From contig NZ_CP147917.1 in assembly GCF_039645965.1 (NCBI RefSeq), positions 248,001 through 312,000 of the forward strand: a DNA stretch of 64,000 nucleotides. Reading direction: 5' to 3'. The position numbers were made by a program, and so were the translations under genes. The notes under the pieces were generated by a model. That model was not told the origin of the DNA, did no database searches, and worked only from the letters and a program-made list of their open reading frames with translations. Of this stretch, positions 2,840 through 40,878 are shown in pieces (positions within the stretch are counted from its first letter, which is position 1; every line of letters starts with the position of its first letter). The stretch is from Sulfurimonas sp. HSL3-2. GTDB lineage: Bacteria > Campylobacterota > Campylobacteria > Campylobacterales > Sulfurimonadaceae.

Positions 2840-3829
2840 ATGGATATGGCATATTTAATCGAAACGATAGTAAAGATCGTTGTAATTATGTTGATCTTTT
2901 CTGCATTAGCAGGATTGGGTACATATTTTGAGCGTAAGGTTCTTGCATTTATGCAACGCCGTTTAGGGCCGATGAGTGTCGGACCTTACGGACTTTTACA
3001 AGTTGCCGCAGACGGTATTAAACTATTTACGAAAGAGGATATTATTCCTACAAACGTAGTAGCACCGATATTTAAGTTTGCACCGGTCATCACTGCTGCA
3101 ACAGCATTTATGGCAGCAGCTGCGATCCCGTTTTGGCCGCAGTTCACTGTATTTGGTTATACGGTTCATCCGATCGTTGCAGATACTGAGATAGGACTTT
3201 TATATGTACTTGCTGTAATGGCGATCGGTCTGTACGGGCTTTTACTTGGCGGTATGGCTTCTGCAAATAAGTTTTCACTTATCTCAGCAGCTCGTACATC
3301 TGCGATATTTATCTCTTATGAGGTAGTAACAGGATTGTCACTGCTTGCACCGATCATGATCGTTGGATCGTTTTCACTGATCGATTTTAATAACTATCAA
3401 GTAGGCGGGATAACACATTGGTTAGTATGGACTCAACCGGTGGCATTCATCCTTTTCTGGATAGCTGCATTTGCTGAAACTGGTCGTACACCGTTTCACC
3501 TTATCGCGAACGATCACGAGATCATCGACGGTTTCGGTACTGAGTACTCTGGTATGAGATGGGGTCTTTTCTTCATCGGTGAGTATGCGAATATGTTCTT
3601 TATCTCGTTTGTGATCGCTTTAGTGTTCTTAGGCGGATTTGGAGATGGTGGAGTTATGGGTGCTTTAGCATTGATCGCTAAAGTCGCATTTTTCTTTTTC
3701 TTCTTCTTATGGACTAGAGCTGCATGGCCTGACGTAAGACCGGATCAATTGATGTGGTTATGTTGGAAAGTGCTTATGCCGATAGCTGTAATAAACGTAG
3801 TCGTTACCGGCTTAGTTATGATGTTTTAA
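2840..3829 (+). CDS. nuoH: NADH-quinone oxidoreductase subunit H
   Basis: 329 residues with about eight hydrophobic helices. Family motifs are clear: an early YFERKVLAFMQRRLGP segment, FAETGRTPFHLIANDHE in the acidic loop, and SGMRWGLFFIGEYANM. NuoH is the membrane subunit that forms the quinone chamber at the junction with the peripheral arm. Length is normal for the family. It lies 2 bp after nuoG and just before nuoI, as in other complex I operons. No defect was seen. Confidence 0.97.
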   Translation: MDMAYLIETIVKIVVIMLIFSALAGLGTYFERKVLAFMQRRLGPMSVGPYGLLQVAADGIKLFTKEDIIPTNVVAPIFKFAPVITAATAFMAAAAIPFWPQFTVFGYTVHPIVADTEIGLLYVLAVMAIGLYGLLLGGMASANKFSLISAARTSAIFISYEVVTGLSLLAPIMIVGSFSLIDFNNYQVGGITHWLVWTQPVAFILFWIAAFAETGRTPFHLIANDHEIIDGFGTEYSGMRWGLFFIGEYANMFFISFVIALVFLGGFGDGGVMGALALIAKVAFFFFFFLWTRAAWPDVRPDQLMWLCWKVLMPIAVINVVVTGLVMMF

Positions 3830-3838
3830 GGGGTGGTG

Positions 3839-4453
3839 ATGAGTATAGAACAATTTAAAAACAGAAATGTAGGCGATGATTACTTTTTAGTAGACATCGA
3901 AGATTATCCGACTGACGGTTGGGGTAAATTCAAACGTGTAGTAAAACGTACATTCAAAGGCGAGCTTTTTGTCGGTCTTTGGGTAGTTTTACGCGAGATG
4001 ATCAAGTTTGATATCCATACAGTCCAATATCCAAAAGAGAAGATGCCGATAGGTCCAAGATACCGTGCGGTTCACGAGATGAAACGTCTTTGGGAATCTG
4101 GTACTGAGAGATGTATCGGTTGTGGACTTTGTGAGAAGATCTGTATCTCTAACTGTATCCGTATGGAGACTCGTATAGATGAGAATTCTCGTAAAGAGGT
4201 AAGTGAATACAGCATCAATCTTGGACGTTGTATCTTCTGTGGTTATTGTGCAGAGGTCTGTCCTGAGCTTGCGATCACACATGGACCGAGATATGAGAAT
4301 GGAAGTGAGCAAAGAGCGCACTTTGTAATGTATGAGGATATGTTAACACCGATCGACATGCTTAAAGCTGGTCAGCAGCAAGAGTTTGAAGGTTTCGGTG
4401 CAGTAACACCACATGAAGATGAGCGTGTCAAAAAGACACCTCTAGCATATTAA
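3839..4453 (+). CDS. nuoI: NADH-quinone oxidoreductase subunit I (2x 4Fe-4S)
   Basis: 204 residues from the ATG at 3839. A GTG at 3833 is in frame, but the AAGGGG sequence right after the nuoH stop fits the ATG better. Two classic motifs bind the N6a and N6b clusters: Cys92, 95, 98, 102 (CIGCGLCEKIC) and Cys131, 134, 137, 141 (CIFCGYCAEVC). The protein carries electrons from NuoG toward the quinone site. It has about 40 extra residues before the ferredoxin core and a C-terminal tail, which is common in this lineage as far as I know. It sits between nuoH and nuoJ. Confidence 0.96.
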   Translation: MSIEQFKNRNVGDDYFLVDIEDYPTDGWGKFKRVVKRTFKGELFVGLWVVLREMIKFDIHTVQYPKEKMPIGPRYRAVHEMKRLWESGTERCIGCGLCEKICISNCIRMETRIDENSRKEVSEYSINLGRCIFCGYCAEVCPELAITHGPRYENGSEQRAHFVMYEDMLTPIDMLKAGQQQEFEGFGAVTPHEDERVKKTPLAY

Positions 4454-4462
4454 GGAGTATGA

Positions 4463-5035
4463 ATGTTTGAAGCAATAGCTTTTTATCTGTTTGCAATTTT
4501 GACAATTGTTATGTTTTACATCGTTGTAACAACAAAACAAGCACTATTTGCACTGACTGCGTTGGCAGCCGGGATGATTTTTATATCGGCATTTTTCTTT
4601 ATTTTAGGTGCTGATTTCCTTGGAGTTGTCCAGATTATCGTTTATACAGGAGCTGTAATGGCTCTATATGCTTTTGGTATGATGTTTTTCGATACGACAA
4701 GAGAAGTGAAAGAGAAAAACGGTTCATCTCTTATTATCATGGGATTATCGATTTTATCTGCGGTATTTGTAGTAGCTATATTCTCTGCTCCGATCATCGG
4801 TTCAAATATAGAGTCTCTTTATCCTACCATAGAGGGTGCGACTAACTCTCAATCTGTGGGTATGGTTCTATTTACTAAATATCTTGTTCCGTTTGAACTT
4901 GCAGCGGTCATGTTACTTGTAGCCATGGTTGCGGGTATCGTACTTGCAGGTAAGAAAATGGATAGATCATTAACTCTTATGGCTGAAGAGGAGATATTAC
5001 TGTCTCAAGAAGCTAACAAAAAGGTGATTTTATGA
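4463..5035 (+). CDS. nuoJ: NADH-quinone oxidoreductase subunit J
   Basis: 190 residues with five hydrophobic segments and a short charged C-terminal tail. The segment GVVQIIVYTGAVMALYAFG is the family signature around the third helix, which forms the pi-bulge in known structures. The start has a good AAGGAG site 6 bp upstream, and the stop overlaps the nuoK start by 4 bp. NuoJ is a small core membrane subunit of the proton-pumping arm. Confidence 0.95.
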   Translation: MFEAIAFYLFAILTIVMFYIVVTTKQALFALTALAAGMIFISAFFFILGADFLGVVQIIVYTGAVMALYAFGMMFFDTTREVKEKNGSSLIIMGLSILSAVFVVAIFSAPIIGSNIESLYPTIEGATNSQSVGMVLFTKYLVPFELAAVMLLVAMVAGIVLAGKKMDRSLTLMAEEEILLSQEANKKVIL

Positions 5036-5340
5036 TGGAAATCGGTTTAACACACTATCTAATATTAGCAACGATCCTTTTTTCAATTGGTTTGATCGGG
5101 GTTATGAGACGTAAGAATCTTTTGATGCTGTTTTTTGCAACGGAGATTTTATTAAACGCAGTAAATGTCGGTTTTGCGGCTATTTCACATTACTATAACG
5201 ACCTAACAGGTCAAATGTTTGCGTTTTTTATCATCGCTATCGCTGCATCTGAAGTTGCTGTAGGGCTGGGACTGCTTATCGTTTGGCATAAACGTAACGG
5301 TAATATTAATCTTGACACTATGTCATCAATGAGAGGATAA
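5032..5340 (+). CDS. nuoK: NADH-quinone oxidoreductase subunit K
   Basis: 102 residues with three transmembrane helices, the standard size for NuoK. The second and third helices carry the glutamates used in proton transfer (FFATEILLNAVNVGF and AIAASEVAVGLGLL). Two in-frame ATGs (5032 and 5035) overlap the end of nuoJ, so translation is probably coupled. NuoL follows after 4 bp. Confidence 0.96.
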   Translation: MMEIGLTHYLILATILFSIGLIGVMRRKNLLMLFFATEILLNAVNVGFAAISHYYNDLTGQMFAFFIIAIAASEVAVGLGLLIVWHKRNGNINLDTMSSMRG

Positions 5341-5344
5341 AAGA

Positions 5345-7255
5345 ATGGAATTATACTTATATATAGCACTGTTTTCGCCGCTTGTTGGTGCACTGTTTGC
5401 TGGACTTTTTGGAGCTACGCCTAAGACATTGTTGACCGGTGTAGTAAACTCATCACTTTTGTTTGCTTCATTTGTAGCGAGTTCAATACTTCTTGTTCAT
5501 ATATTGACTGGCGGAGAGACTGTACATGTAGAGATGATGACATGGATGGCTACGGGTGATCTTTATATACCTTTTGGTTTCGTGGTCGATCAGGTAAGTG
5601 TTACTATGATGATGGTCGTAACGACTGTTTCAACTGTCGTACACATCTACTCTATCGGTTACATGGATCATGATAAAGGTTTTAACCGTTTCTTCTCATA
5701 CCTTTCAGCATTCGTTTTCTCGATGATGGTTCTTGTTATGAGTGATAACTTTGCAGGTCTTTTCATAGGTTGGGAAGGTGTTGGTCTTTGTTCATGGTTA
5801 TTGATCGGATTCTGGTACCATAAAGAAACTGCTACATGGGCAGCTAATGAAGCGTTCATCATGAACCGTATCGCTGACCTTGGTATGCTTATCGGTATCT
5901 TCTTGATCTACTGGAACACAGGTACTCTTCAATACGATAAAGCGTTTGAAATTATGCCGACGTTAGATATGAGTACACTTATGTACATAGGTGTCTTCCT
6001 GTTTGTCGGTGCGATGGGTAAATCTGCGCAGTTCCCACTACATACTTGGCTAGCTGATGCGATGGAAGGTCCGACTCCGGTTTCTGCACTAATCCACGCG
6101 GCTACAATGGTTACAGCGGGTGTCTACTTAGTAGTTCGTGCAAATCCTTTATATGATGTGATCCCGGAAATGGGTCTGTTTATAGCAAGTCTTGGTGCAT
6201 TTGTCGCGATGTTCGCTGCATCTATGGCACTTGTAAACCGTGATATGAAACGTATCATCGCTTACTCTACACTTTCACAACTAGGGTATATGTTTGTGGC
6301 AGCTGGACTTGGTGCTTACTGGGTTGCACTTTTCCACCTTATGGCACACGCGTTCTTTAAAGCGCTTTTATTCTTAGGTGCAGGTAACGTTATGCACGCA
6401 ATGGATGATGAACTTGATCCGTTTAAAATGGGTGGTCTTCGCAAGCAGATGAAGGGTACATGGATCATGATGACTCTTGCTTCTGTTGCACTTGCGGGTA
6501 TCTTCCCTCTTGCAGGATTCTTCTCTAAAGATACGATCTTAGAAGTAGGTTTTGTCGAGCATCATTATGTTATCTATACAGTACTTTTATTGACAGCCGG
6601 TCTGACAGCGTTTTACTCTTTCCGTCTTGTCGCTCTTATCTTCCACGGTGAAGAGAGATACAAGCTGTTTGGTTTTCATCCGCACGAAGCGTATAAATTT
6701 ATGCTTATAGCGATGAGTCCGCTTGCAGTACTGGCAGTGATCGCAGGATCATTCAAAACTACGTACTTTGATATGATCACTAAACTGCTTCCTGATACTG
6801 AGTACCATATCCACTCTCATGTGACTGAATGGGTGATGATCATTGGAACTCAGGTGTTTGTAATCCTGGCTATCTGGTATGCATATAAAAAATATATCAA
6901 CTTCAAAGGTGAAGATAAAGAGTTTGAAAAACGTCTTGATTATAAAATTCTTATCAACCAATACTATGTTCCTCATTTCTATGAAGAGTATATTGCAAAA
7001 CCGTACAAAGAGTTATCTGATGTACTATGGAGAAGAGTTGACCTTAAAATTGTCGATGCAACAGTTGATCTAATCGCTATGACTATTTACAAAACAGGTG
7101 AAAACACACGTACAATGCAAAACGGTAACCTATCTACTATGCTTAGATGGATGGTTATAGGTACAGTTATATTGTTATCATTAGCAGTTGCTTTTGGATT
7201 AGCAGTTAGATATTCAGATGCAATAACATCTGTTTTATCAGGTTTAGGAGTTTAA
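5345..7255 (+). CDS. nuoL: NADH-quinone oxidoreductase subunit L
   Basis: 636 residues and about 16 helices, an antiporter-like proton-pumping subunit. Motifs include GWEGVGLCSWLLIGFWY (with the conserved Glu), HTWLADAMEGPTPVSALIHA and the lysine-bearing MKRIIAYSTLSQLGYM. The C-terminal third contains the long lateral-helix region, with a charged stretch near residues 515-540, then a last membrane helix. It is joined to nuoM with 3 bp between genes. Confidence 0.97.
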   Translation: MELYLYIALFSPLVGALFAGLFGATPKTLLTGVVNSSLLFASFVASSILLVHILTGGETVHVEMMTWMATGDLYIPFGFVVDQVSVTMMMVVTTVSTVVHIYSIGYMDHDKGFNRFFSYLSAFVFSMMVLVMSDNFAGLFIGWEGVGLCSWLLIGFWYHKETATWAANEAFIMNRIADLGMLIGIFLIYWNTGTLQYDKAFEIMPTLDMSTLMYIGVFLFVGAMGKSAQFPLHTWLADAMEGPTPVSALIHAATMVTAGVYLVVRANPLYDVIPEMGLFIASLGAFVAMFAASMALVNRDMKRIIAYSTLSQLGYMFVAAGLGAYWVALFHLMAHAFFKALLFLGAGNVMHAMDDELDPFKMGGLRKQMKGTWIMMTLASVALAGIFPLAGFFSKDTILEVGFVEHHYVIYTVLLLTAGLTAFYSFRLVALIFHGEERYKLFGFHPHEAYKFMLIAMSPLAVLAVIAGSFKTTYFDMITKLLPDTEYHIHSHVTEWVMIIGTQVFVILAIWYAYKKYINFKGEDKEFEKRLDYKILINQYYVPHFYEEYIAKPYKELSDVLWRRVDLKIVDATVDLIAMTIYKTGENTRTMQNGNLSTMLRWMVIGTVILLSLAVAFGLAVRYSDAITSVLSGLGV

Positions 7256-7258
7256 TCG

Positions 7259-8809
7259 ATGTTAGATCATATCTTGTCAATATTAATATTTTTACCGGCA
7301 TTAGCGGCAATACTTGGCTTTGTTGTCCATAAAGACAGTGCTAAAGTGTACGGTATTGCAGTTTCTATCATAGAGTTCGTTGTATCTCTATACTTATGGT
7401 TTGCATTTGATTCAAGTGTTTCTGGAATGCAGTTTATGGAAAGTATGCCTATCGTTCCCTCTTTCGGTATTAACTACCTGTTAGGAATAGACGGTATATC
7501 TCTGTTTATTATCATCATGGCATCACTATTTACGATGCTTGGTATCGCTTCATTAGGTGAGACTAAAAAGATCAAGAACATGGTGATCACGTTATTGTTC
7601 CTACAGATGACTATGGTAGGAGTTTTCGCTGCATTAGATGCGATCCTATTCTATGTGTTCTGGGAGCTTTCTTTAGTACCTATGCTTTATATCATCGGTG
7701 CATGGGGTGGTCCTTTACGTATATACGCATCAGTTAAGTTCTTCCTGTATACATTTGCAGGTTCACTTATCATGCTTGTGGGTATGCTTTTTATGGCATA
7801 TTTATACTATCAGGCAACGGGTGTATGGAGCTTCTCAATCTTAGAGTGGTACCGTCTGATCCTTCCTGAGAACTATCAATTATGGTTATTTGCGGCATTC
7901 TTTATCGGTTTTGCGATTAAAGTTCCTATGTTCCCGTTCCATACATGGTTACCGTATGCACACGGTCAAGCACCGACTATCGGTTCTGTGATACTTGCGG
8001 CTGTTCTGCTTAAAATGGGTACGTATGCGTTTATCCGTTTTTCACTGCCGATGTTCCCTGATGCATCTGTGTTTTATATGTTCCCGATAGCTATTATTTC
8101 GATCATCATGATCATCTATACTGCGATGGTGGCTTATGCACAAGAGGACATCAAACAAGTCGTTGCATATTCGTCTATCTCACACATGGGTGTTATCGTT
8201 CTTGGAACATTTGCACTGAATGTCGAGGGTATCACAGGTTCTGTGTTCTTGATGATCGGTCACGGTATCGTTTCAGGTGCTCTGTTCTTGCTTGTCGGTG
8301 TTATCTATGACAGACGTCATACGAAGCTTATGAGTGAATTCGGCGGACTTGCTCACGTTATGCCTAGATATGCGACAATATTCGGGATCATGATGATGGC
8401 ATCAGTAGGTCTTCCGTTACTTATCAACTTCGTCGGTGAGTTCTTGAGTTTACTAGGTTTCTATAACCAGTCTCATATCACTACGCTTTTAGCTGGTATC
8501 GCTATCATTGTCGGTGCTATCTATATGCTAAGCGCGTTCAAAAAAGCTTTCTTTGGTGAAGTGACGAATGAGGCAAACAGAAACCTGCCGGATATCAATA
8601 AAAGAGAGTTAGTGGCTTTGATCCCGCTTACTATCATAGCTGTTTGGTTAGGTATCTATCCAAAACCTGTTTTAGAGCCGATCAACAACAGTGTCGAGGA
8701 TATCGTTGCATTGATGCACGAAAAAGCTATCACGCCTGAAGCTAAAACTCGTATACCTGCGCTAGAAGGTAAAATCACTATACAAAAATCTGAAGCGGAG
8801 GGTAAATAA
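7259..8809 (+). CDS. nuoM: NADH-quinone oxidoreductase subunit M
   Basis: 516 residues, 13-14 helices, a second antiporter-like subunit. It shows FYVFWELSLVPMLYIIG with the key Glu, FHTWLPYAHGQAPTIGS, and KQVVAYSSISHMG. The length agrees with bacterial NuoM. The stop codon overlaps the nuoN ATG by one base (TAATG), a typical coupled junction. The C-terminal 40 residues are soluble and charged. Confidence 0.97.
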   Translation: MLDHILSILIFLPALAAILGFVVHKDSAKVYGIAVSIIEFVVSLYLWFAFDSSVSGMQFMESMPIVPSFGINYLLGIDGISLFIIIMASLFTMLGIASLGETKKIKNMVITLLFLQMTMVGVFAALDAILFYVFWELSLVPMLYIIGAWGGPLRIYASVKFFLYTFAGSLIMLVGMLFMAYLYYQATGVWSFSILEWYRLILPENYQLWLFAAFFIGFAIKVPMFPFHTWLPYAHGQAPTIGSVILAAVLLKMGTYAFIRFSLPMFPDASVFYMFPIAIISIIMIIYTAMVAYAQEDIKQVVAYSSISHMGVIVLGTFALNVEGITGSVFLMIGHGIVSGALFLLVGVIYDRRHTKLMSEFGGLAHVMPRYATIFGIMMMASVGLPLLINFVGEFLSLLGFYNQSHITTLLAGIAIIVGAIYMLSAFKKAFFGEVTNEANRNLPDINKRELVALIPLTIIAVWLGIYPKPVLEPINNSVEDIVALMHEKAITPEAKTRIPALEGKITIQKSEAEGK

Positions 8810-10317
8810 TGTTAAGTCCTGTTAATGTTTCTTTAGAGTCGCTCAATATTGCGACTTTGGTACCTATGCTTATTCCAGTCATCGGTGCACTTTTTATATT
8901 AGTTTTGGATCTTTTCAAAAAAGATCTAAATAAATCTATGTACGTAATGCTGAGTCTGCTTTTCGTACTTCTTGATTTTGGTTCATTAATAGATTTTTCT
9001 ATTGAGTTCAATACAAACGGAACACTGCTTGGTTATTTTGACCTGATGTTAATAGACGGTATCGCACTTCTGTCTCAGTTCATCATTGTCGGTGCATCGA
9101 TCCTGTTTATGCCTCTTGCGCTTACGTCTAAGCGTTTCCATGAGTTCTCATATTCTGAGTTCTTTGCACTGTTCCTGTTTATGATCGCAGGATTCCAGTT
9201 TATGGTGGCTTCTGATAACCTGATCCTTATCTTTGTAGGACTTGAGACGGCATCTTTAGCACTATATACTATGATCGCTCTTCACAACAGAAACAAATCT
9301 TTTGAAGCAGCAGTGAAGTACTTTACTATGGGAGCACTCGCAGCAGGTTTTTATGCATTTGGTGCGATGATCTTCTATGCACTGACAGGTTCTGTAGAGA
9401 TCCATCAAATAGCTGCAGTTTTCCATGCTGACGGTTATGCGAACTTACCGTTTATTTTAGTCGCTGTTGTATTTATGCTTGCGGCATTAGGATTCAAACT
9501 TTCTTTGGTTCCGTTTCATACTTGGGCTCCTGACGTTTATGAGGGTGCAAGTGCTTCAATGGCAGGATATATGTCTATCGTTCCAAAGATAGCCGGTTTT
9601 GTCGTTGCTATGCGTCTATTTGAGTTCTTAGTCCATAGCGGTGTGGTATGGCTTGATGTCATCCTTTATGCAACTGTTGTCATCACGATGACGCTTCCAA
9701 ACATCTGGGCACTTGTACAAACTGACGTAAAACGTATGCTTGCGTACAGTTCTATTTCACATGCAGGTTTTGTAATGGCAGCGGTTTTAATCGCTACTAC
9801 TCAGGCAAACTCGGCACTGTTCTTATACTGGGTACTGTTTACGTTTACAAACCTTGGATCATTCTCTATGCTATGGATCTCACGCCAGAAAAATCTTCCG
9901 GCAGGTCAAAGTTCAGACCATCCGTATACGAAGTTCTCAGGTATGATAAAAACAGCACCTTTAGTCGCGACAGTGATGGCACTGTTTATGTTAAGTCTTG
10001 CAGGTATTCCTCCGTTTGGACTTTTCTGGGGTAAACTGTATATGATCTCTTCAGCAGTGACATCAGGATACGTAGTACTGGCATTAATCATGGCACTTAA
10101 TTCAGCTATAGCTGGATACTATTATGTAAAACTGATAGTATATATGTTTATGAAAGAACCGGTACCGGGTCTTGAAGGCAAAGTGTATTCGATGAATGCT
10201 TCGACTTCACTTCGTACGATTATCGGTATCGCAGCAGTAGGAACTGTTTTTGCTGTTATCGTAATAGATCCATTATTACAATTTATAACTACATTTGTGT
10301 ACAATAGCGGATACTAA
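8809..10317 (+). CDS. nuoN: NADH-quinone oxidoreductase subunit N
   Basis: 502 residues, about 14 helices, the third antiporter-like subunit. Recognisable segments are FVGLETASLALYTMIA with the conserved Glu, FHTWAPDVYEGA, and KRMLAYSSISHAGFVMA. It is the last complex I gene here. Only 25 bp separate it from pflA, with no terminator visible, so the flagellar gene is probably read from the same transcript. Confidence 0.96.
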   Translation: MLSPVNVSLESLNIATLVPMLIPVIGALFILVLDLFKKDLNKSMYVMLSLLFVLLDFGSLIDFSIEFNTNGTLLGYFDLMLIDGIALLSQFIIVGASILFMPLALTSKRFHEFSYSEFFALFLFMIAGFQFMVASDNLILIFVGLETASLALYTMIALHNRNKSFEAAVKYFTMGALAAGFYAFGAMIFYALTGSVEIHQIAAVFHADGYANLPFILVAVVFMLAALGFKLSLVPFHTWAPDVYEGASASMAGYMSIVPKIAGFVVAMRLFEFLVHSGVVWLDVILYATVVITMTLPNIWALVQTDVKRMLAYSSISHAGFVMAAVLIATTQANSALFLYWVLFTFTNLGSFSMLWISRQKNLPAGQSSDHPYTKFSGMIKTAPLVATVMALFMLSLAGIPPFGLFWGKLYMISSAVTSGYVVLALIMALNSAIAGYYYVKLIVYMFMKEPVPGLEGKVYSMNASTSLRTIIGIAAVGTVFAVIVIDPLLQFITTFVYNSGY

Positions 10318-10342
10318 TAAAAAAATATAGGGAGTAAGATAA

Positions 10343-12703
10343 GTGTTAAAATGGCTGCTTCTCCTTATGACTCCATTTTATCTTTACGCGCTTGAGATAA
10401 CATTTCAAGCCGGTAAAGAGAATTTTGATAAATATACTATCTTACATGTAAGAGAAAACACCCCCTTTATATGCGAACCTCAATATGATGATTTTAACAA
10501 TATAAAAAAAGTTATCTGTGCGTTTTCAAAAAAGCCTGAAGAGCTTATTAAACCATTAAACGATGATTTTTTCAGTGTTGTCAGCGAAGTCAAAAAAGAC
10601 ACATTCTTTCTCATAGTCACACCTACATACAAGATGAAACTGCTCCCTGATGTATTTGATCTTACAAAAGACACGACGATCTTTAAATCGAATGTCAAAC
10701 TGTCAAAATCATGGGTAATGATCGGATATAAAGAGAAGTTTTCACTACTCAAAGAGGATAAGACTCCCGATATCGGACTTAATATGCCTGTTACCTTTAC
10801 CGAAAACGAACTGCTTTATGTAGGTAGTCTGGACATCAAAGGAAATCCGGTTCATATCAAAGAAGCTAGAGATGTGACTGCATATCTAAAAGCTAAAAGA
10901 AAGTATGAAAAAGGTGATTATGCAGATGCCTTATCGATCATTGATGAGATCATACAGGCATATCCGGATTCGATATTTATGAGCGAACTGATATATTATA
11001 AGATCAAAGTCCTTTCAAAGCTCCGTCATTACGATGATGTTATAGCCCTTTCTAAAGTATATCTGCGCACTTACTCTTCGGACGAAAATGTACCTGAGAT
11101 ACTTTCATTGACTGCAATGGCGTATAGCAAGATAGGGTTAAACAGTGATGCAGACTACTTTTACGACAGACTTTTTTCGGAGCATACTGATTCGCTGTTT
11201 TCTAAAAAAGGGATGATATATAAGGGTGATCAACTTAGTGATTCCGGAGACTTTAAAAAAGCGCTTATGTATTATACCCGTGCTTTAAATGAGACAAAAG
11301 ATATCGAGACTGCTGCTGTCGCTGCGGAGAAAGTCGCTAAAAACCATCTAAGCAGCGCCGAGCCAAAAAAAGCACAGATGTATGTAGACAAAATACTTGA
11401 AGCTGATCCTTCGTACTTTACAAAGGATATCGAAGATGCACTCTCATTCGCACAAAATCTAGCAGATAAAAAAATCTATTTAGAAGCATCCAAGATATCT
11501 CAGATCGTTTTAGCAAAATTGAAAAAGAGCGATGATCTTTATGAAGAGGTTCTAAAGAACAGCGGTGTATGGCTGGCAAAGACTGATGAAAAATCAGAAG
11601 CGACACAACTGCTTAACAGGTATATAAAAGAGTTTGATCTAGGAAAGTTTACACAAGAGGTCACAACTACAAAAGATTCTCTTTTCTTTGACAGTTCTGA
11701 TCAAAATATAAGTGCCAAACTTGCTAAATATGACGACTTGATAAATACATACAACGGTGATTCAATAGGCGAAAAGGCGATATACAAAAAAGCTGAGCTC
11801 CTTTTTGACAATCAGAGATATACAGAAGTGCTCAATATGAAAGAGCAACTTTCGGCATTGGACAAAACGGTATTTAAAGATGTAGATACGATCCTCAATA
11901 AAGCTGCGACAAATCTGATGAAAGAGAGACTCAAAGAGAGAAAATGCAGCGATGTTATAGATATCTCCGGCGAGTACAGCATCAAGCTTTCAAATGAGTT
12001 TGACGATGGTCTGTTTAACTGTTATATGAAGGTCTCGAAGTTTAATGAGGCAAAAGAGATAGCGTCTAACCATATAGATTCTAAAATATTGACACAGCGT
12101 ATGAAATGGATGTATCAATATGCTGATGTAGATTTTAAAATAGGGGATTATAAAGATTCGATAGCAATGGGTAATGATCTCGTAAAACTTATAGATAAAG
12201 ATAAAAAAAGTCCATATCTTGATATCTATAGACTCCTTTTCGATGCTTATCAGAGAGTCGGTGATAATGACAAGATGATCGAGATGATGACAAAGATCAC
12301 AGCTGCATTTGGTGATGATTTTAAAGATATCGAACGGTATGTTCAGATGATGACTTTAGGCAGTACTTTAAAAGATGACAATATCATCATCACATATGCA
12401 CAAAAAGTGATGGATCTGCAGAGAGAGACATCATCGTATACCCAGTCTCCGTATGTGGAGTTTGCTTTGTATCAGGCATATTTAAATAAAGACAACACGA
12501 CAAGAGCAATGGATACGCTGTATTCACTTGATGAGAGAGAGTTGACAAAAGAGCAAAGAGCAAGACAAAAATATCTTTTAGGTTCACTTTTACAAAAGCA
12601 ATGGAGATATGACGAAGCAAAAGAGGAGTTCAATAAGTCGATAGAAGCTGACAAAGACTCCCCGTGGGCAAAACTTGCTGCTGATGCTATAAAGTTGATT
12701 TAA
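10343..12703 (+). CDS. pflA: PflA-like flagellar motor scaffold protein (TPR-rich, periplasmic)
   Basis: 786 residues from a GTG start with a GGGAGTAAG site upstream. A signal peptide (about residues 1-16) leads into an N-terminal beta-rich domain, then from about residue 170 to the end a run of helical TPR-like repeats (for example KRKYEKGDYADALSIIDEII and LGSLLQKQWRYDEAKEEFNK). C. jejuni PflA has almost the same length and, as I recall, also follows nuoN. PflA forms part of the periplasmic disk scaffold that widens the stator ring in Campylobacterota motors. The identification rests on length, architecture and synteny, not on a search. Confidence 0.78.
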   Translation: MLKWLLLLMTPFYLYALEITFQAGKENFDKYTILHVRENTPFICEPQYDDFNNIKKVICAFSKKPEELIKPLNDDFFSVVSEVKKDTFFLIVTPTYKMKLLPDVFDLTKDTTIFKSNVKLSKSWVMIGYKEKFSLLKEDKTPDIGLNMPVTFTENELLYVGSLDIKGNPVHIKEARDVTAYLKAKRKYEKGDYADALSIIDEIIQAYPDSIFMSELIYYKIKVLSKLRHYDDVIALSKVYLRTYSSDENVPEILSLTAMAYSKIGLNSDADYFYDRLFSEHTDSLFSKKGMIYKGDQLSDSGDFKKALMYYTRALNETKDIETAAVAAEKVAKNHLSSAEPKKAQMYVDKILEADPSYFTKDIEDALSFAQNLADKKIYLEASKISQIVLAKLKKSDDLYEEVLKNSGVWLAKTDEKSEATQLLNRYIKEFDLGKFTQEVTTTKDSLFFDSSDQNISAKLAKYDDLINTYNGDSIGEKAIYKKAELLFDNQRYTEVLNMKEQLSALDKTVFKDVDTILNKAATNLMKERLKERKCSDVIDISGEYSIKLSNEFDDGLFNCYMKVSKFNEAKEIASNHIDSKILTQRMKWMYQYADVDFKIGDYKDSIAMGNDLVKLIDKDKKSPYLDIYRLLFDAYQRVGDNDKMIEMMTKITAAFGDDFKDIERYVQMMTLGSTLKDDNIIITYAQKVMDLQRETSSYTQSPYVEFALYQAYLNKDNTTRAMDTLYSLDERELTKEQRARQKYLLGSLLQKQWRYDEAKEEFNKSIEADKDSPWAKLAADAIKLI

Positions 12704-33429: not shown

Positions 33430-35631
33430 ATGGCAAATCCAACTATAATCTGGTCTGTGATAGATGAAGCACCTGCTTTAGCTACATATTCATTATTACC
33501 AATCGTTCAAGCTTTTGCAAAAGAAGCTGGAATCAATGTTGAACCAAGAGATATCTCTCTTGCAGGAAGAGTCATTTCTACTTTCCCAGAGTACTTGACT
33601 GAAGATCAAAGAATAGCTGATGAATTGGCATATTTAGGTGAAGTTGCTAAACAACCTGAAGGTAACATTATCAAGCTTCCAAATATCTCTGCGTCTATTC
33701 CTCAATTAAAAGAGTGTATCGCTGAGCTTCAATCTCAAGGTTATAATCTTCCTAACTATCCGGAAGATCCAAAAACTGAAGAGGAAAAAGCTTTACAAGC
33801 TAGATATTCTACTTGTTTAGGTTCTGCGGTTAACCCGGTTCTACGTGAAGGTAACTCTGACCGTCGTGCGGCAGTTGCAGTTAAAAAATTCGCTCAGAAA
33901 AACCCACACAAACTTAGAGCTTTCGAAGAAAACTCTAAAGCATGTGTAAGACATATGCAAGATGGTGACTTCTACGAAAACGAGCAATCAGTTATCACTG
34001 ATTCTGCTGCTAACGTAACTATCTCTTTAAACGGAAAAGTTCTTAAAGAGCTTAAAGACGTTCAAGATAAAGAAGTACTTGACGGTACATTCATGTCTGC
34101 AAAAGCATTACGTGCTTTCATCGCTGAGACTATCGCAGAAGCTAAAGAGGAAGGTCTTTTATGGTCTATCCACTTAAAAGCGACTATGATGAAAGTTTCT
34201 GACCCTATTATGTTCGGTCACGCTGTTGAAGTATTCTTCAAAGACGTATACGAAAAATATGCTGATGAGTTCAAAGCTCTTGGTGTTAACCCGAATCTAG
34301 GTCTTGGAGATCTAGCGAAAAAACTTGAGAAATCAAGCAAAAAAGCTGAGATCGAAGCTGCTGTTAAAGCTGTAGTTGAAGCTGCTAGCCCGGCGATCGC
34401 TATGGTTGACTCTGACAACGGTATCACAAACCTACACGCTTCAAACGACGTTATCATCGATGCTTCTATGCCGGTTGTTGTACGTGACGGCGGTAAAATG
34501 TGGAACAAAGACGGAAAAGTTCAAACTTGTATGTCTGTAATCCCTGACAGAAGCTATGCAACTTTCTACAAAGAGATCGTTGATGACTGTGTTAAAAACG
34601 GACAGTTCGATGTTACTACAATGGGTAACGTTGCAAACGTTGGTCTTATGGCACAAAAAGCTGAAGAGTACGGTTCTCACCCGACAACTTTTGAAATGGC
34701 AGAAGACGGTGTTGTAGAAGTTACTCAAAACGGAAACGTTCTTATGACTTTCAACGTTGAAAAAGGTGATATCTGGAGAATGAGCCGTACTAAAGACGAG
34801 CCGATCAAAGACTGGGTAAGACTTGCTCACGAAAGAGGAATGTTAACTGGTGATCCAATCGTATTCTGGTTAGATTCTTTCAGAGCTCACGATGCTAACA
34901 TCATCAAAAAAGTTATGGAGTATTTCCCGGCACATTTAGCTAAGACTCCGATCGAGTACCATATCATGGCTCCAAAACAAGCTATGAAACATGCACTTAA
35001 ACGTGTAAGAGCTGGTCTAAACACTATCTCTGTAACTGGTAACGTTTTACGTGACTACCTGACTGACCTTTTCCCAATTTTGGAACTAGGAACTTCAGCG
35101 AAAATGCTTTCTATCGTTCCATTACTTGCTGGTGGTGGTCTATTTGAAACTGGTGCTGGCGGATCTGCTCCTAAGCACGTTGACCAATTCCTTGCAGAGG
35201 GTCACCTTCGTTGGGATTCACTTGGTGAGTTCTTAGCACTTGCTGAGTCACTAAGATATATCGAGCAAAAACACCCAAGTGAAAAACTTGCAGAACTAAC
35301 TGCTGCACTTGACGCTGCAAATGCTGGTTACCTTGATAACAACAAAGCTCCGGGAAGAAAAGCTGGTGAGCCGGATAACAAAGCTAGCCACTTCTATGTA
35401 GCACAATACTGGGCAAAAGCTCTTGCTGGATCTAAAAATGCAGAACTTGCTGCTAAATTTGCTCCAATTGCAAAAGCTCTTGAAGAGAACGAAGCGAAGA
35501 TCATGGAAGAGTTACTTTCAGTTGAAGGTAAAGCTCAAGACATCGGTGGATACTACCACCCAGATAACGCAAAAGCAGAAGCTGCTATGCGTCCATCTGC
35601 TACTCTTAACGCTATCATCGATTCTATATAA
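33430..35631 (+). CDS. icd: NADP-dependent isocitrate dehydrogenase, monomeric type
   Basis: 733 residues, the length of the monomeric IDH family rather than the usual ~410-residue dimeric type. Start region [20 protein letters not shown] and later segments [24 protein letters not shown]-like [20 protein letters not shown], and [11 protein letters not shown] are typical. It interconverts isocitrate and 2-oxoglutarate with NADP. In Sulfurimonas-like organisms this step may run in the reductive direction of the TCA cycle; that is lineage inference. Codon use is strongly biased, suggesting high expression. A GGAG site and a strong terminator frame the gene. Confidence 0.94.
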
Positions 35632-35664: not shown

Positions 35665-35703
35665 AAGCTTTCCTCTTTTTATTTTCTAATCTATTTTTTT
35701 TCT

Positions 35704-35905
35704 TTACATGTAAGACTTTGTAGATATACTTTTTGACCGCAAAAAGTATCAAAAACTCTGCAACGGCTTCGAGCTTGACTGCGTCAAGTCCCCAAGAAAA
35801 AGCAACTCCATTCCTAAAAACATAAAACTCGGTTACACCTCAAACAGTTATGTTTTCTTTACGTCATTCCTTTGCTGTTTCTTGGCTCTGCAGATGTTGC
35901 AACTG
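35704..35905 (+). repeat. Left arm of a ~200 bp imperfect inverted repeat
   Basis: This arm matches the reverse complement of 36818-37018. Shared blocks, outer to inner: TTACATGTAA; TACTTTTTG-N4-CAAAAAGTA (hairpin, 35727-35748); AACTCTGCAACGGCTTCGAGC; the TGAC-N3-GTCA hairpin (35774-35788); CCCAAGAAA; CAAACAGTT; and GGCTCTGCAGATGTTGCAACTG. Divergence lies mainly in loops and between blocks. The stretch 35632-36003 has no gene; the rest of it is A+T-rich and holds the likely promoter of the next gene. Confidence 0.85.
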
Positions 35906-36003
35906 GTGTATTGACTTGTTTGGAAACGTTGACTTTCTTCGAACTAAATCAGATATAATATTTGTAGAATAAAAGTTAGTTATATGACTAAAGGTTAGAT
36001 ATA

Positions 36004-36795
36004 TTGAACAAAATAATCAAATGTTACATGTGCGATAGAGACGCTATTTCTAGTGAACATGTACCACCAAAAAATTTATTTCCTGAACTAAAAGATGTTG
36101 GAGAAGATTACAGAAAACATCTTATCACTGTACCAAGTTGTGAAATACATAACAGTGCTAAAAGTAAAGATGATGAATTCTTAATGGTTAGCCTAGCTGG
36201 CATATTTGGTAATAATTCAATTGGATACTTACATAAATTTACAAAAGTAAATCGTGCGATTAGAAGAACTTCAAATAAATTACTAGATAAAGCATTTGCA
36301 AAAAGAAAACATTACAATCTAAAAAGTGATAATGGATTTCTTGAAGTAATTTGGGGGACTCCAGACTATGCAAGGCTAATAAATTGTTTTGAACATATAG
36401 CCTATGGACTTCATTATCATCACCTACAAAAATACTTCAAAGGTGAAGTGAAAGTTCTTCTTGGTTATCTTCATAGTGAAGATGAAAGTAACCATAATTT
36501 TGTTCAGTTTCTAAAAGACAGAGCAGCAATTGATTTAATAGACATACCACACTATGGTGCAAATAAAGATATTTTTTATTATCAATTTTCAAACCCTGAT
36601 GAACATGGGATTTATATGGTTCATATGAGGTTTTATGGTGGAATCGATATTTATGCGTCATTTCTACCAGAGGATAAATCTAAACCATTTAATTTTGCAT
36701 TAGAATTGATGAAGGTATGTGATGAAACTATATTCACTCTAGGTGACAAAGAATATAAAGTTAAAAATGCTAACAAAAGAAGAAATGATATATGA
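36004..36795 (+). CDS. HNH-type nuclease-like protein inside an inverted-repeat unit
   Basis: 263 residues from a TTG start; AAAGG lies 9 bp upstream. The N-terminal 60 residues have a zinc-ribbon/HNH look: Cys7-x2-Cys10, then Ser-Glu-His19-Val-Pro-Pro-Lys, then Cys46-x2-His49-Asn50-x2-Lys53 and DDEF (56-59). The remaining 200 residues match no family I recognise and have an aromatic, Lys-rich composition. Codon use is more A+T-rich than in neighbours. It stands alone between two inverted ~200 bp repeats. DNA cleavage is an inference from the motif only. Confidence 0.65.
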   Translation: MNKIIKCYMCDRDAISSEHVPPKNLFPELKDVGEDYRKHLITVPSCEIHNSAKSKDDEFLMVSLAGIFGNNSIGYLHKFTKVNRAIRRTSNKLLDKAFAKRKHYNLKSDNGFLEVIWGTPDYARLINCFEHIAYGLHYHHLQKYFKGEVKVLLGYLHSEDESNHNFVQFLKDRAAIDLIDIPHYGANKDIFYYQFSNPDEHGIYMVHMRFYGGIDIYASFLPEDKSKPFNFALELMKVCDETIFTLGDKEYKVKNANKRRNDI

Positions 36796-36817
36796 AATTT
36801 CAGTCGAATTTTTGTGT

Positions 36818-37018
36818 CAGTTGCAACATCTGCAGAGCCGAGAAAGTGCTAATAAATAACGTGAAAAAAATTCAACTGTTTGAACGGAGTGAGTTTTGAA
36901 TTTTTAGGGATTTATTGGGAGTTTCTTGGGAACCTGACAAAGTCAGGCTCGAAGCCGTTGCAGAGTTTTTGCTTACTTTTTGCGGACAAAAAGTATGAAG
37001 AGAAGTCTTTACATGTAA
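36818..37018 (-). repeat. Right arm of the ~200 bp imperfect inverted repeat
   Basis: Reverse-complement partner of 35704-35905. It keeps the same two hairpins: TACTTTTTG-CGGA-CAAAAAGTA (36974-36995) and CCTGAC-AAA-GTCAGG (36933-36947). The second stem carries C-G where the left arm has T-A, so pairing is kept although the bases differ. The outer end is again TTACATGTAA (37009-37018). Confidence 0.85.
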
Positions 37019-37026
37019 GAAAAGAG

Positions 37027-37596
37027 TTAAACCCTCTTTTTCTTCTTTGTAGCCGTAGAAAGGTAAAGCCATAGAATTGCAAATATCGTTGCTACTACTA
37101 TGACGGCTATGTATGGTTTTTCTACTATGTGGTCGTAAATCTTTACGATGGCATTGCCTGAAAAGTAGCTTGCAAAACCTACTACTAATGTCCATACGGC
37201 AGCAGAGATGATGTTTAGTATAGTGAACTTTTTAAGATCATACTTTGTAAGTCCTATGGCGATAGGGATGAGCGTTTTGATGCCGTATACGAACTTTTGA
37301 AAAAGAATGATCCACGAGCCGTACTGTTTCATCTTTATGTGCGCTAATGCAAATTTACGTCTGTGCTTTTTCAGGTATGGGTGCAGTACCTCTTTTTGGT
37401 TTCTTGCCATGTAGAAAAGCAGGTTGTCGCCTATGGCGTTTGCACTAAAGGCGATGGCCATCGACGTAGCCAAGTCCATTTTTCCCATGTATGAGAGAAC
37501 CGATGCAGCTACAAGTGCTACAAATCCTCCACCAAGTGAGTAGATAAAAAGACCTATATATCCGTAAGTCGCGATGTTGCTTAACATATCTTCCAT
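37027..37596 (-). CDS. Second DedA-like (SNARE-associated) membrane protein
   Basis: 189 residues, five or six hydrophobic stretches. The DedA pattern is partly kept: an early GGGFVALVAASVLSYMG region, FQKFVYGIKTLIPIAIGLTK in place of the usual FIPGxR--P-AG, then a C-terminal helix and a Lys-rich tail. Divergent from the copy at 18777-19385 and closer to small DedA proteins. It probably acts in lipid movement in the inner membrane. TTACATGTAA occurs just outside both ends (37009-37018 and 37606-37615). Confidence 0.78.
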   Translation of the reverse strand: MEDMLSNIATYGYIGLFIYSLGGGFVALVAASVLSYMGKMDLATSMAIAFSANAIGDNLLFYMARNQKEVLHPYLKKHRRKFALAHIKMKQYGSWIILFQKFVYGIKTLIPIAIGLTKYDLKKFTILNIISAAVWTLVVGFASYFSGNAIVKIYDHIVEKPYIAVIVVATIFAILWLYLSTATKKKKRV

Positions 37597-37626: not shown

Positions 37627-39600
37627 CTATAGTTTTTTGATCTTTGTTATCTCGTCGCGCAGGCGGGCTGCTTCTTCGAACTCAAGTTCACGCGCGGCTT
37701 TTTTCATCTGCTCTGTCAGCTCTTTTACGATCTTTTTCTTTTCTGCTGCAGGCATTTTATCAATATTTTTTCTTTTTGAGTAGAGATCGCCGTGATCTTC
37801 CAGTTTTAGGTTCTCATCCAGTTTACGTATGGTCGTCGTCGGCGTTATGCCGTGAGCTTTGTTAAACTCCTCTTGATGCTTACGTCTGTTTTGCGTCTTT
37901 TCTATGGCACGCTGCATAGAACCTGTTATCTTGTTCGCATAGAGTATGACGCGTCCCTCGGAGTTTCTGGCAGCTCTACCGATGGTCTGTACAAGTGCGG
38001 TCTCACTTCGTAAAAATCCCTCTTTATCTGCATCGAGGATGGCGACAAGACTTACCTCCGGGAGGTCAAGTCCCTCACGAAGCAGGTTGATTCCTATGAG
38101 CACGTCAAACTCTCCTAAACGAAGTGAACGAATGATCTGGTTACGTTCTATGGTATCGATGTCCGAGTGCATATACTGCACTTTTATGCCAAGGTCTGCA
38201 AGGTATTTAGTGAGAGCTTCGGCCATCTTTTTGGTAAGGACGGTGATGAGGACTCTCTCATCTTTTGCAGTGACCTTCTTTATCTCATCATGGATATCTT
38301 CGACCTGGTTATCCAGCGGTTTGATGTCGATGATGGGGTCTAGCAGACCTGTCGGACGGATGATCTGTTCGGCTTTCACTGCTGAAAGTTCCAGCTCATA
38401 CTGCGACGGAGTCGCCGAGACAAATAGGTAGTGCGGTGCTTTGTTGATGTACTCGTCCAGTTTTAAAGGGCGGTTGTCCAGTGCACTCGGCAGACGGAAA
38501 CCGTACTCGACAAGCACCTCTTTTCTGGCACGGTCACCGGCGTACATCCCGCGAAACTGCGGAAGACTCACGTGTGACTCATCGACGATGACGAGATACT
38601 CTTTATGTTTGACCTCAAAATAATCAAGCAGGGTAAACGGTGCTTCGCCCGGTTTTTTATCCGTAAGCAGTCTTGAGTAGTTCTCGATCCCCTTACACAT
38701 CCCCGTTGTCTGAAGCATCTCGAGGTCGAACTCTACACGTTGTTTAAGGCGTTGTGCTTCGACAAGTTTCCCCTCTTTTAAAAGGAAGTCAAGACGCTCG
38801 CCAAGTTCATCCTCTATGCGTTTTATAGCGACTGACATACGGTCTTGAGAGACGCTGAACTGGCTTGTCGCATAGATGTTTACATTTTTATAGTCTTCGA
38901 TGCGTTTGTTTTCTAAGACGCTGATCTTGTAGATGGACTCGACCTCGTCGCCGAAGAACTCGATGCGGATCGCTTCATCTTCGAAGTAGGGCGGATAGAT
39001 ATCTATGACATCGCCGCTGACACGGATATGCCCGCTGTCAAAGTAGCTGTCGTTTCTGGTGTAACCCATCTCTACAAGGCGAAGCAGAAGTTTCTTCTGA
39101 CTTATCTCATCACCCACAGTAACAGCCTGCACCATCTTAAGGTACTCTTCCGGATCACCCAAACCGTAGTTTGCAGAGACCGAAGCGATGACTATGACAT
39201 CATCGTAGCTAAGCAGGTTTGCTGTACATGAAAGGCGAAGACGTTCAAGCTCGTCGTTGATGGCACTGTCTTTTTCTATAAAAAGATCCTGACGCGGGAT
39301 ATACGCTTCAGGCTGATAGTAGTCGTAGTAGGAGACGAAATACTCGACATGGTTGTTTGGGAAAAACTGTCTGAACTCGCTGTAGAGCTGAGCTGCGAGA
39401 GTCTTGTTGTGGGTCATGATGATGGTCGGCATCTTGACGTTTTCGATGACACGAGCCATAGTATGTGTCTTACCGCTTCCCGTCACACCTTCGAGTGCTT
39501 GGTATCGGTTGCCTTTGAGTATTGAGTCGCTTAAGGCTTTTATGGCTTGAGGCTGATCTCCGGCTGGAGAATATGGTGAATGGACTGTAAAGTTTGGCAT
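37627..39600 (-). CDS. uvrB: Excinuclease ABC subunit B
   Basis: 657 residues from the ATG at 39600. Walker A is GVTGSGKTH, the beta-hairpin is [15 protein letters not shown], motif VI is QTIGRAARN, and the C-terminal UVR motif ends the chain ([13 protein letters not shown]). It loads at DNA lesions after UvrA and recruits UvrC. A TATAAT box ends 5 bp before the ATG, so the message is probably leaderless. A diverged copy of its first 23 codons lies at 40766-40843. Confidence 0.97.
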
Positions 39601-39605
39601 GTGCA

Positions 39606-39611
39606 ATTATA
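39606..39611 (-). promoter_or_regulatory. -10 box directly before uvrB (leaderless start)
   Basis: TATAAT on the minus strand with 5 bp to the ATG at 39600. No ribosome-binding site fits in the gap. Confidence 0.5.
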
Positions 39612-39700
39612 GCGGAATCGGTGTTTAAACTGAGGTTATGAAGAAGATACTCAAGAGATGTGATAGAATATATTTAAGAATAAATAATTTGGATAAGAAG

Positions 39701-40765: not shown

Positions 40766-40843
40766 AAAATCACTGAGTATCTCTATGGCTTGAGGCTGAT
40801 CTCCCGCTGGAGAATAGGGTGAATGTACTTTAAAATATGGCAT
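40766..40843 (-). pseudogene. Diverged duplicate of the uvrB 5' end
   Basis: Read on the minus strand from the ATG at 40843: [20 protein letters not shown], then EILSDFI and a TAA stop, 27 codons. The real UvrB begins [26 protein letters not shown]. About 60 bp are closely similar at DNA level, with changes both silent and coding. Only the first 23 or so codons are present, so this is a remnant rather than a gene. Confidence 0.8.
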
Positions 40844-40853
40844 AGAACTTTAT

Positions 40854-40878
40854 CCCGGCATAGAAGTTGCCGGGTTTT
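40854..40878 (+). terminator. GC-rich intrinsic terminator
   Basis: CCCGGCA, a 7-base loop, TGCCGGG, then TTTT on the plus strand. It follows the ankyrin gene and the uvrB remnant and abuts the end of the convergent cysteine-rich gene, so it may serve both. Confidence 0.65.

Follow-up and report, generated by a model that had tools for sequence, protein, structure and literature searches.

A mobile insertion cassette (MIC) is a passenger gene lying between insertion sequence ends. MITEs and REP/BIME elements are short, noncoding, multicopy, intergenic, and palindromic, and they often occur as inverted pairs. Integrons and CALINs hold single accessory genes, many of which are followed by an element that acts as a folded strand. 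In defense and toxin-antitoxin hotspots, the same gap between core genes carries different accessory genes in different species. In the HEARO/omega RNA systems (IscB-IsrB), an HNH protein is found near a structured element.

We analyzed a 64,000-nt window (positions 248001 to 312000) of the single-contig, 2.24-Mb genome of Sulfurimonas sp. HSL3-2, in which one gene for an HNH-motif protein lies between two inverted arms. The locus resembles all of these systems in part. Like an MIC, it has one gene between inverted ends with no transposase inside, but its arms are of different ancestry and are not recognized insertion sequence ends, and there is no block mobility. The repeat that forms the arms has the general character of MITEs and REP/BIME elements, but its core, of 144 nt and 42 pairs, is much longer and multibranched and is closed by an invariant stem, and neither a RAYT flanked by copies nor, among the neighboring gene families covered, a partner transposase was found. 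As in integrons, many single accessory genes have the folded element downstream, and the HNH family is itself an integron cassette in one relative (G068); the repeat core, however, is three branched without attC R boxes, and the source genome has no integron integrase. The hotspot pattern is present as well, except that a conserved structured repeat marks several of the gaps here. Unlike the HEARO systems, the repeat also occurs without an HNH gene, no library ties the 263-amino-acid (263-aa) protein to IscB or IsrB, and there is no Rfam HEARO match. On balance, we favor the reading, with a probability of about 0.7, that arm 1, the HNH gene, and arm 2 are three pieces and not a single mobile unit. 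In this reading, permissive gaps are marked by a family of structured repeats of the MITE/REP type, and an integron-type HNH gene settled in one of these gaps.

Two inverted arms around an HNH gene

The initial annotation described two reverse-complementary arms of about 200 bp around a lone, A+T-richer gene of the HNH type, with no transposase or integrase. These observations were confirmed. Arm 1 matched the 2 kb around arm 2 on the minus strand with 155 bits (78% identity over 206 nt) versus 28 bits for the best of 1,000 Markov shuffles. At full extent, the arms cover 35699 to 35905 and 36818 to 37023, and their complementarity falls into three ungapped blocks of 57, 90, and 66 nt (74 to 82%). 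Only one open reading frame (ORF) lies between them (Table 1), with a G+C content of 0.30 versus 0.39 for the arms and the window and with a conserved HNH motif; no transposase or integrase ORF was found within the unit. The core of arm 2 begins 25 nt 3' of the HNH stop codon and is in the sense orientation relative to the HNH gene.

Table 1. Features of the icd-yqaA locus, in window coordinates
Feature	Position	Strand	Remarks
icd, monomeric isocitrate dehydrogenase	33430..35631	+	Left core flank of hotspot
TCTTTACATGTAAGA, outer end of arm 1	35701..35715		Direct repeat; genome-wide word
Arm 1, A-type repeat	35704..35905	-	152 bits with covariance model R1
Arm 1, terminal hairpin	35727-35749		
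Arm 1, structured core	35758-35903	-	
HNH-motif protein gene	36004..36795	+	263 aa; TTG start; A+T rich
Arm 2, A-type repeat, other sub-branch	36818..37018	+	158 bits with covariance model R1
Arm 2, structured core	36820-36963	+	
Arm 2, terminal hairpin	36974-36997		
TCTTTACATGTAAGA, outer end of arm 2	37006..37020		Second copy of same direct repeat
yqaA/DedA-like membrane protein	37027..37596	-	Named by eye; right core flank of hotspot
uvrB	37627-39606		Next after yqaA-like gene

A target duplication at the outer ends (35704 and 37018) had been proposed as a check. A 15-bp direct repeat, TCTTTACATGTAAGA, is present there, but it cannot be read as a target duplication because it consists of genome-wide words. 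No 10-mer is more frequent in the window than TTACATGTAA (11 copies versus 0.1 expected), which occurs at 35704, 37009, 37606, and eight more sites between 10442 and 59338, and CTTTACATGTAAG is found 85 times in the source genome, 208 times in G001, and 6 times in G004. The reversed CTTTACATGTAAG control had no copies in any of the 12 genomes. The CTTTACATGTAAG word resembles an uptake signal or a modification site. Near uvrB, an 85-nt direct repeat with 79% identity (39541 to 39625 and 40784 to 40868) is perhaps a duplicated uvrB start.

A dispersed family of structured repeats

That the gene might sit between copies of a genome-wide repeat had also been proposed, and this proved correct. The source genome contains six copies including both window arms, the others being at 98978, 638719, 1371088, and 1653319 (the last truncated). 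Copies were found in 28 of 150 relatives by DNA search and in 39 of 200 with the covariance model, mostly in Sulfurimonas and Sulfurimonadaceae assemblies, and several genomes of two sister genera have at least 15 copies each. Matches of the covariance model in other families of the order were weak. The arms therefore occur at other loci of this genome and of relatives, also without the HNH gene, and they belong to a family of dispersed, noncoding, structured repeats of the Sulfurimonadaceae and some other Campylobacterales. Searches of viral contigs with a 24-mer and of plasmid sequences returned no matches, and a phage or plasmid origin of the arm was rejected. Nothing relevant to such repeats was found in the literature.

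Many copies consist of the A half alone. In several species, the A half is joined to an inverted and diverged partner, the B half, in an imperfect palindrome of ∼430 nt, and these A+B elements have terminal inverted repeats around noncoding DNA, as MITEs do. The commonest close pair is head to head, 140 to 220 nt apart; among the copies listed, only the window pair has a whole gene in its spacer. Because the window geometry is that of the common head-to-head pair, it is conceivable that the arms were one such pair that received a gene in its spacer and later underwent gene conversion. In G019 and G122, toxin-antitoxin genes (RelBE by NCBIfam, the rest named by eye) lie between direct copies spaced 0.8 to 1.7 kb apart. 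The repeat is placed in gaps between core genes, and the adjoining genes differ among species. This is seen in the purL-purH, gltX, accC-rhodanese, and exonuclease-rRNA gaps (genes named partly by eye and partly by Pfam), each of which carries the repeat in several species with differing neighbors. The trpC gap, sought as an empty/filled pair, had different content in each species and no clean empty site. In G007, a short HNH-like frame (KCVYCGVDFMP) with an in-frame stop lies past the A+B element after trpC.

The arms were annotated as structured, and comparison of 25 cores bears this out. The core of ∼144 nt has a closing stem (UUGCAAC/GUUGCAA) and two hairpins, of which one is small and the other long and in two parts; a terminal hairpin (UACUUUUU/AAAAAGUA) lies 3' of the core. 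In the 42-pair structure, 97.1% of cells are paired, and 18 pairs covary with 95 cells changed on both sides (covariation of 0.284); none of 500 shuffles reached any of these measures. The counts of doubly changed pairs are rated by the tool as the robust measures. Sliding the structure reduced the paired share to 29 to 51%, a control biased in favor of the structure, which was itself derived from these related copies. The closing stem and the internal loops are invariant. Departures on the reverse strand of A are G·U in 24 cases versus A·C in 3, which makes the folding strand minus in arm 1 and plus in arm 2; a top-strand fold was rejected because its exceptions are A·C pairs. This does not distinguish RNA from single-stranded DNA, since G·T is tolerated in DNA as well. 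Template-switch correction of quasipalindromes could also generate paired changes in the small hairpins but would hardly account for a three-branched fold whose closing stem is invariant.

The covariation in the style of RNA, the G·U pairs on one strand, and the invariant stem and loops would suit a transcribed functional RNA, acting in 3'-untranslated-region processing or termination, whose copies were spread by recombination and to which the HNH gene is unrelated. The position of the core 3' of genes and in sense to them in the majority of copies fits this as well. Copy number, species-specific placement, and the tandem and inverted pairs favor a spreading repeat instead, and none of the 4,227 Rfam covariance models matched, by which a known structured RNA was excluded. 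We regard the functional RNA as unlikely, though worth keeping in mind.

The family would instead spread as MITEs or REP elements do, with an enzyme acting on its folded single strand (DNA or RNA). A RAYT was rejected as this partner: there were no matches to the repeat model at 13 Y1/RAYT loci, and four repeat-bearing members of the genus (G001, G003, G004, and G007) have no Y1 gene. No transposase was found among the first 25 of the 70 Pfam families in 78 genes neighboring the copies.

Probable separate histories of the arms and the gene

A tree built from 30 arms separates the two: the sister of arm 1 is the G004 arm from the same icd locus (support of 0.975), and arm 2 clusters with G001 and G007 arms from other loci (support of 0.869). 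The left junction, the icd stop codon followed by TTTCTTTACATGTAAGACTTT, is common to G000 and G004. The tree and the common junction indicate that arm 1 is older than the present cargo and that the two arms did not arise together. These histories could be obscured by gene conversion, which keeps our confidence from being higher.

Empty and filled sites were compared at the icd-yqaA gap. It is empty (about 40 bp) in G005 and G006 and filled differently in four other genomes: G002 has a remnant, the first part of an arm; G004 has an arm, a TIGR04255 gene, and two small genes; G003 has a 90-aa ORF and no arm; and G001 has a FIST-like protein (named by eye) and a second gene, again with no arm. 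In G007, icd and yqaA are both at contig ends. The cargo of G001 and G003 shows that an arm is not needed for gene gain, and the link between repeat and cargo may therefore reflect only that some gaps are permissive. None of the loci compared offered a clean pair of empty and filled sites at which an insertion of the repeat could be dated. The icd gene of G000 is 94% identical to that of G003 and 81% identical to that of G004, and the adjoining yqaA is 88 to 89% identical to both, a contrast that may reflect a recombinational exchange of icd.

The HNH protein has the layout C7xxC10 ... E18H19 ... C46xxH49N50, and C7, C10, E18, H19, C46, H49, and N50 are invariant over 10 homologs with identities of 24 to 84%. 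By sequence, it has the zinc ligand and catalytic H/N pattern of the HNH nuclease superfamily, and it is probably a DNA-cutting enzyme. Pfam, NCBIfam, and PADLOC name no family for it. An AlphaFold model (pLDDT of 72, pTM of 0.75) had no match among PDB or viral folds at an E value of ≤0.001.

Homologs are found at other sites without arms. The nearest (84%) is in G099, and two are on viral contigs (L130 and L134); no arms were reported beside any of these. A plasmid of Aliarcobacter faecis carries a 78% homolog whose gene is preceded by an attC-like site. A 52% homolog in G068 is in a cassette array that follows a gene reading by eye as an integron integrase, and an attC site lies directly past its stop codon (L103, 7371 to 7441). 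The stretch of L103 from 3596 to 12000 comprises the integrase-like gene and the array, in which two HNH genes are accompanied by several small genes of unknown identity.

Against this background, the arms and gene might still be one mobile insertion cassette, in which two transposon ends flank a passenger gene and the whole is mobilized in trans. The long inverted arms, whose structured strands point outward as in the two-domain A+B elements, the foreign base composition of the HNH gene, and the presence of TTACATGTAA at both outer ends are consistent with this. However, the arms are only 78% identical and fall in different sub-branches, arm 1 predates the cargo since G004 has it beside other genes, HNH homologs lack arms elsewhere, and the copies listed include no further head-to-head pair with a long, gene-bearing spacer. 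We therefore rejected the cassette as improbable. A homing endonuclease element, for which the HNH motif speaks, is very improbable: the gene is intergenic, with no intron, intein, or split target, its homologs occur in unrelated contexts, and repeats exist without it. The initial suggestion of a small element, mobile or homing, that the arms would bound is thus not supported by the arm branches, the armless homologs, or the other genes beside arm 1 in a sister species.

Repeat-bearing gaps and accessory genes

Copies of the repeat in the source genome neighbor AbiLi (E value of 2e−98), AbiLii (9e−19), a 1,199-aa restriction-like helicase (3e−96), and a NACHT protein (Pfam NACHT, 3.5e−11; a weak EruA match, 1.6e−17). 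A 666-aa NACHT protein adjoining the repeat (L033, 5953 to 7953) is about half the length of similar antiphage NACHT models. In relatives, the neighbors include AbiH (Pfam, 5e−25), PDC-M62A (6e−114), PDC-M62B (3e−84), and MazF, and REase-MTase-like and RelBE proteins were also found beside the repeat. Among 51 window genes, five PADLOC models matched at 1e−8, one gene each, none of them the HNH gene. A putative defense role for the HNH protein is plausible from the company of neighboring genes. The repeat and defense genes are associated, without a measured enrichment, because the loci are nonrandom and because, in the sister genera, the majority of copies stand in cargo-free gaps between core genes.

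Genes often end just 5' of a sense core (25 nt for HNH, 28 nt for NACHT, and 107 nt for AbiL), and the gene on the 5' side is on the same strand as the core in 32 of 48 copies. Together with the folding of one strand and the directly repeated copies around toxin-antitoxin genes in G019 and G122, this could suggest an undescribed cassette system with the repeat as its attC-like site, in which genes with a folded downstream site are gained and lost through an enzyme acting on the folded strand. Such a capture system would load single defense or toxin-antitoxin genes into fixed gaps of Campylobacterota chromosomes by a folded strand and with no integron integrase, and we consider it improbable both as a cassette system and in this wider form. 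The cargo-free copies of the sister genera count against it, as do the inverted, not direct, arms of the window. With R''/R' boxes (RYYYAAC ... GTTRRRY) at the end of a cassette gene as the attC criterion, no box pair was found around the window HNH gene, and the best integron integrase (TIGR02249) match in the source genome was 59 bits versus a cutoff of 265, a result compatible with a CALIN (G068 was left out of this search). The arm was accordingly rejected as an integron attC.

We return to independently placed repeats. Arms 1 and 2 would be separate copies of the dispersed noncoding repeat, and the gaps holding such copies would be permissive places for the gain and loss of accessory genes, often of defense or toxin-antitoxin type. 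Gene turnover in them probably proceeds by homologous recombination after DNA uptake. Here, an HNH gene of the integron cassette type would have come to lie between arm 1, which was already in place, and arm 2, a second copy.

The layout first noted in the window thus resolves into a real inverted-repeat observation, and what is new is the repeat family itself, which deserves description. It is a structured element supported by covariation, new to Rfam, and widespread in a family of mostly sulfur-oxidizing bacteria, for which a search model and the folding strand are now available. With the gaps mapped in which defense genes turn over, the entry of defense genes without visible integrases becomes testable at named loci.
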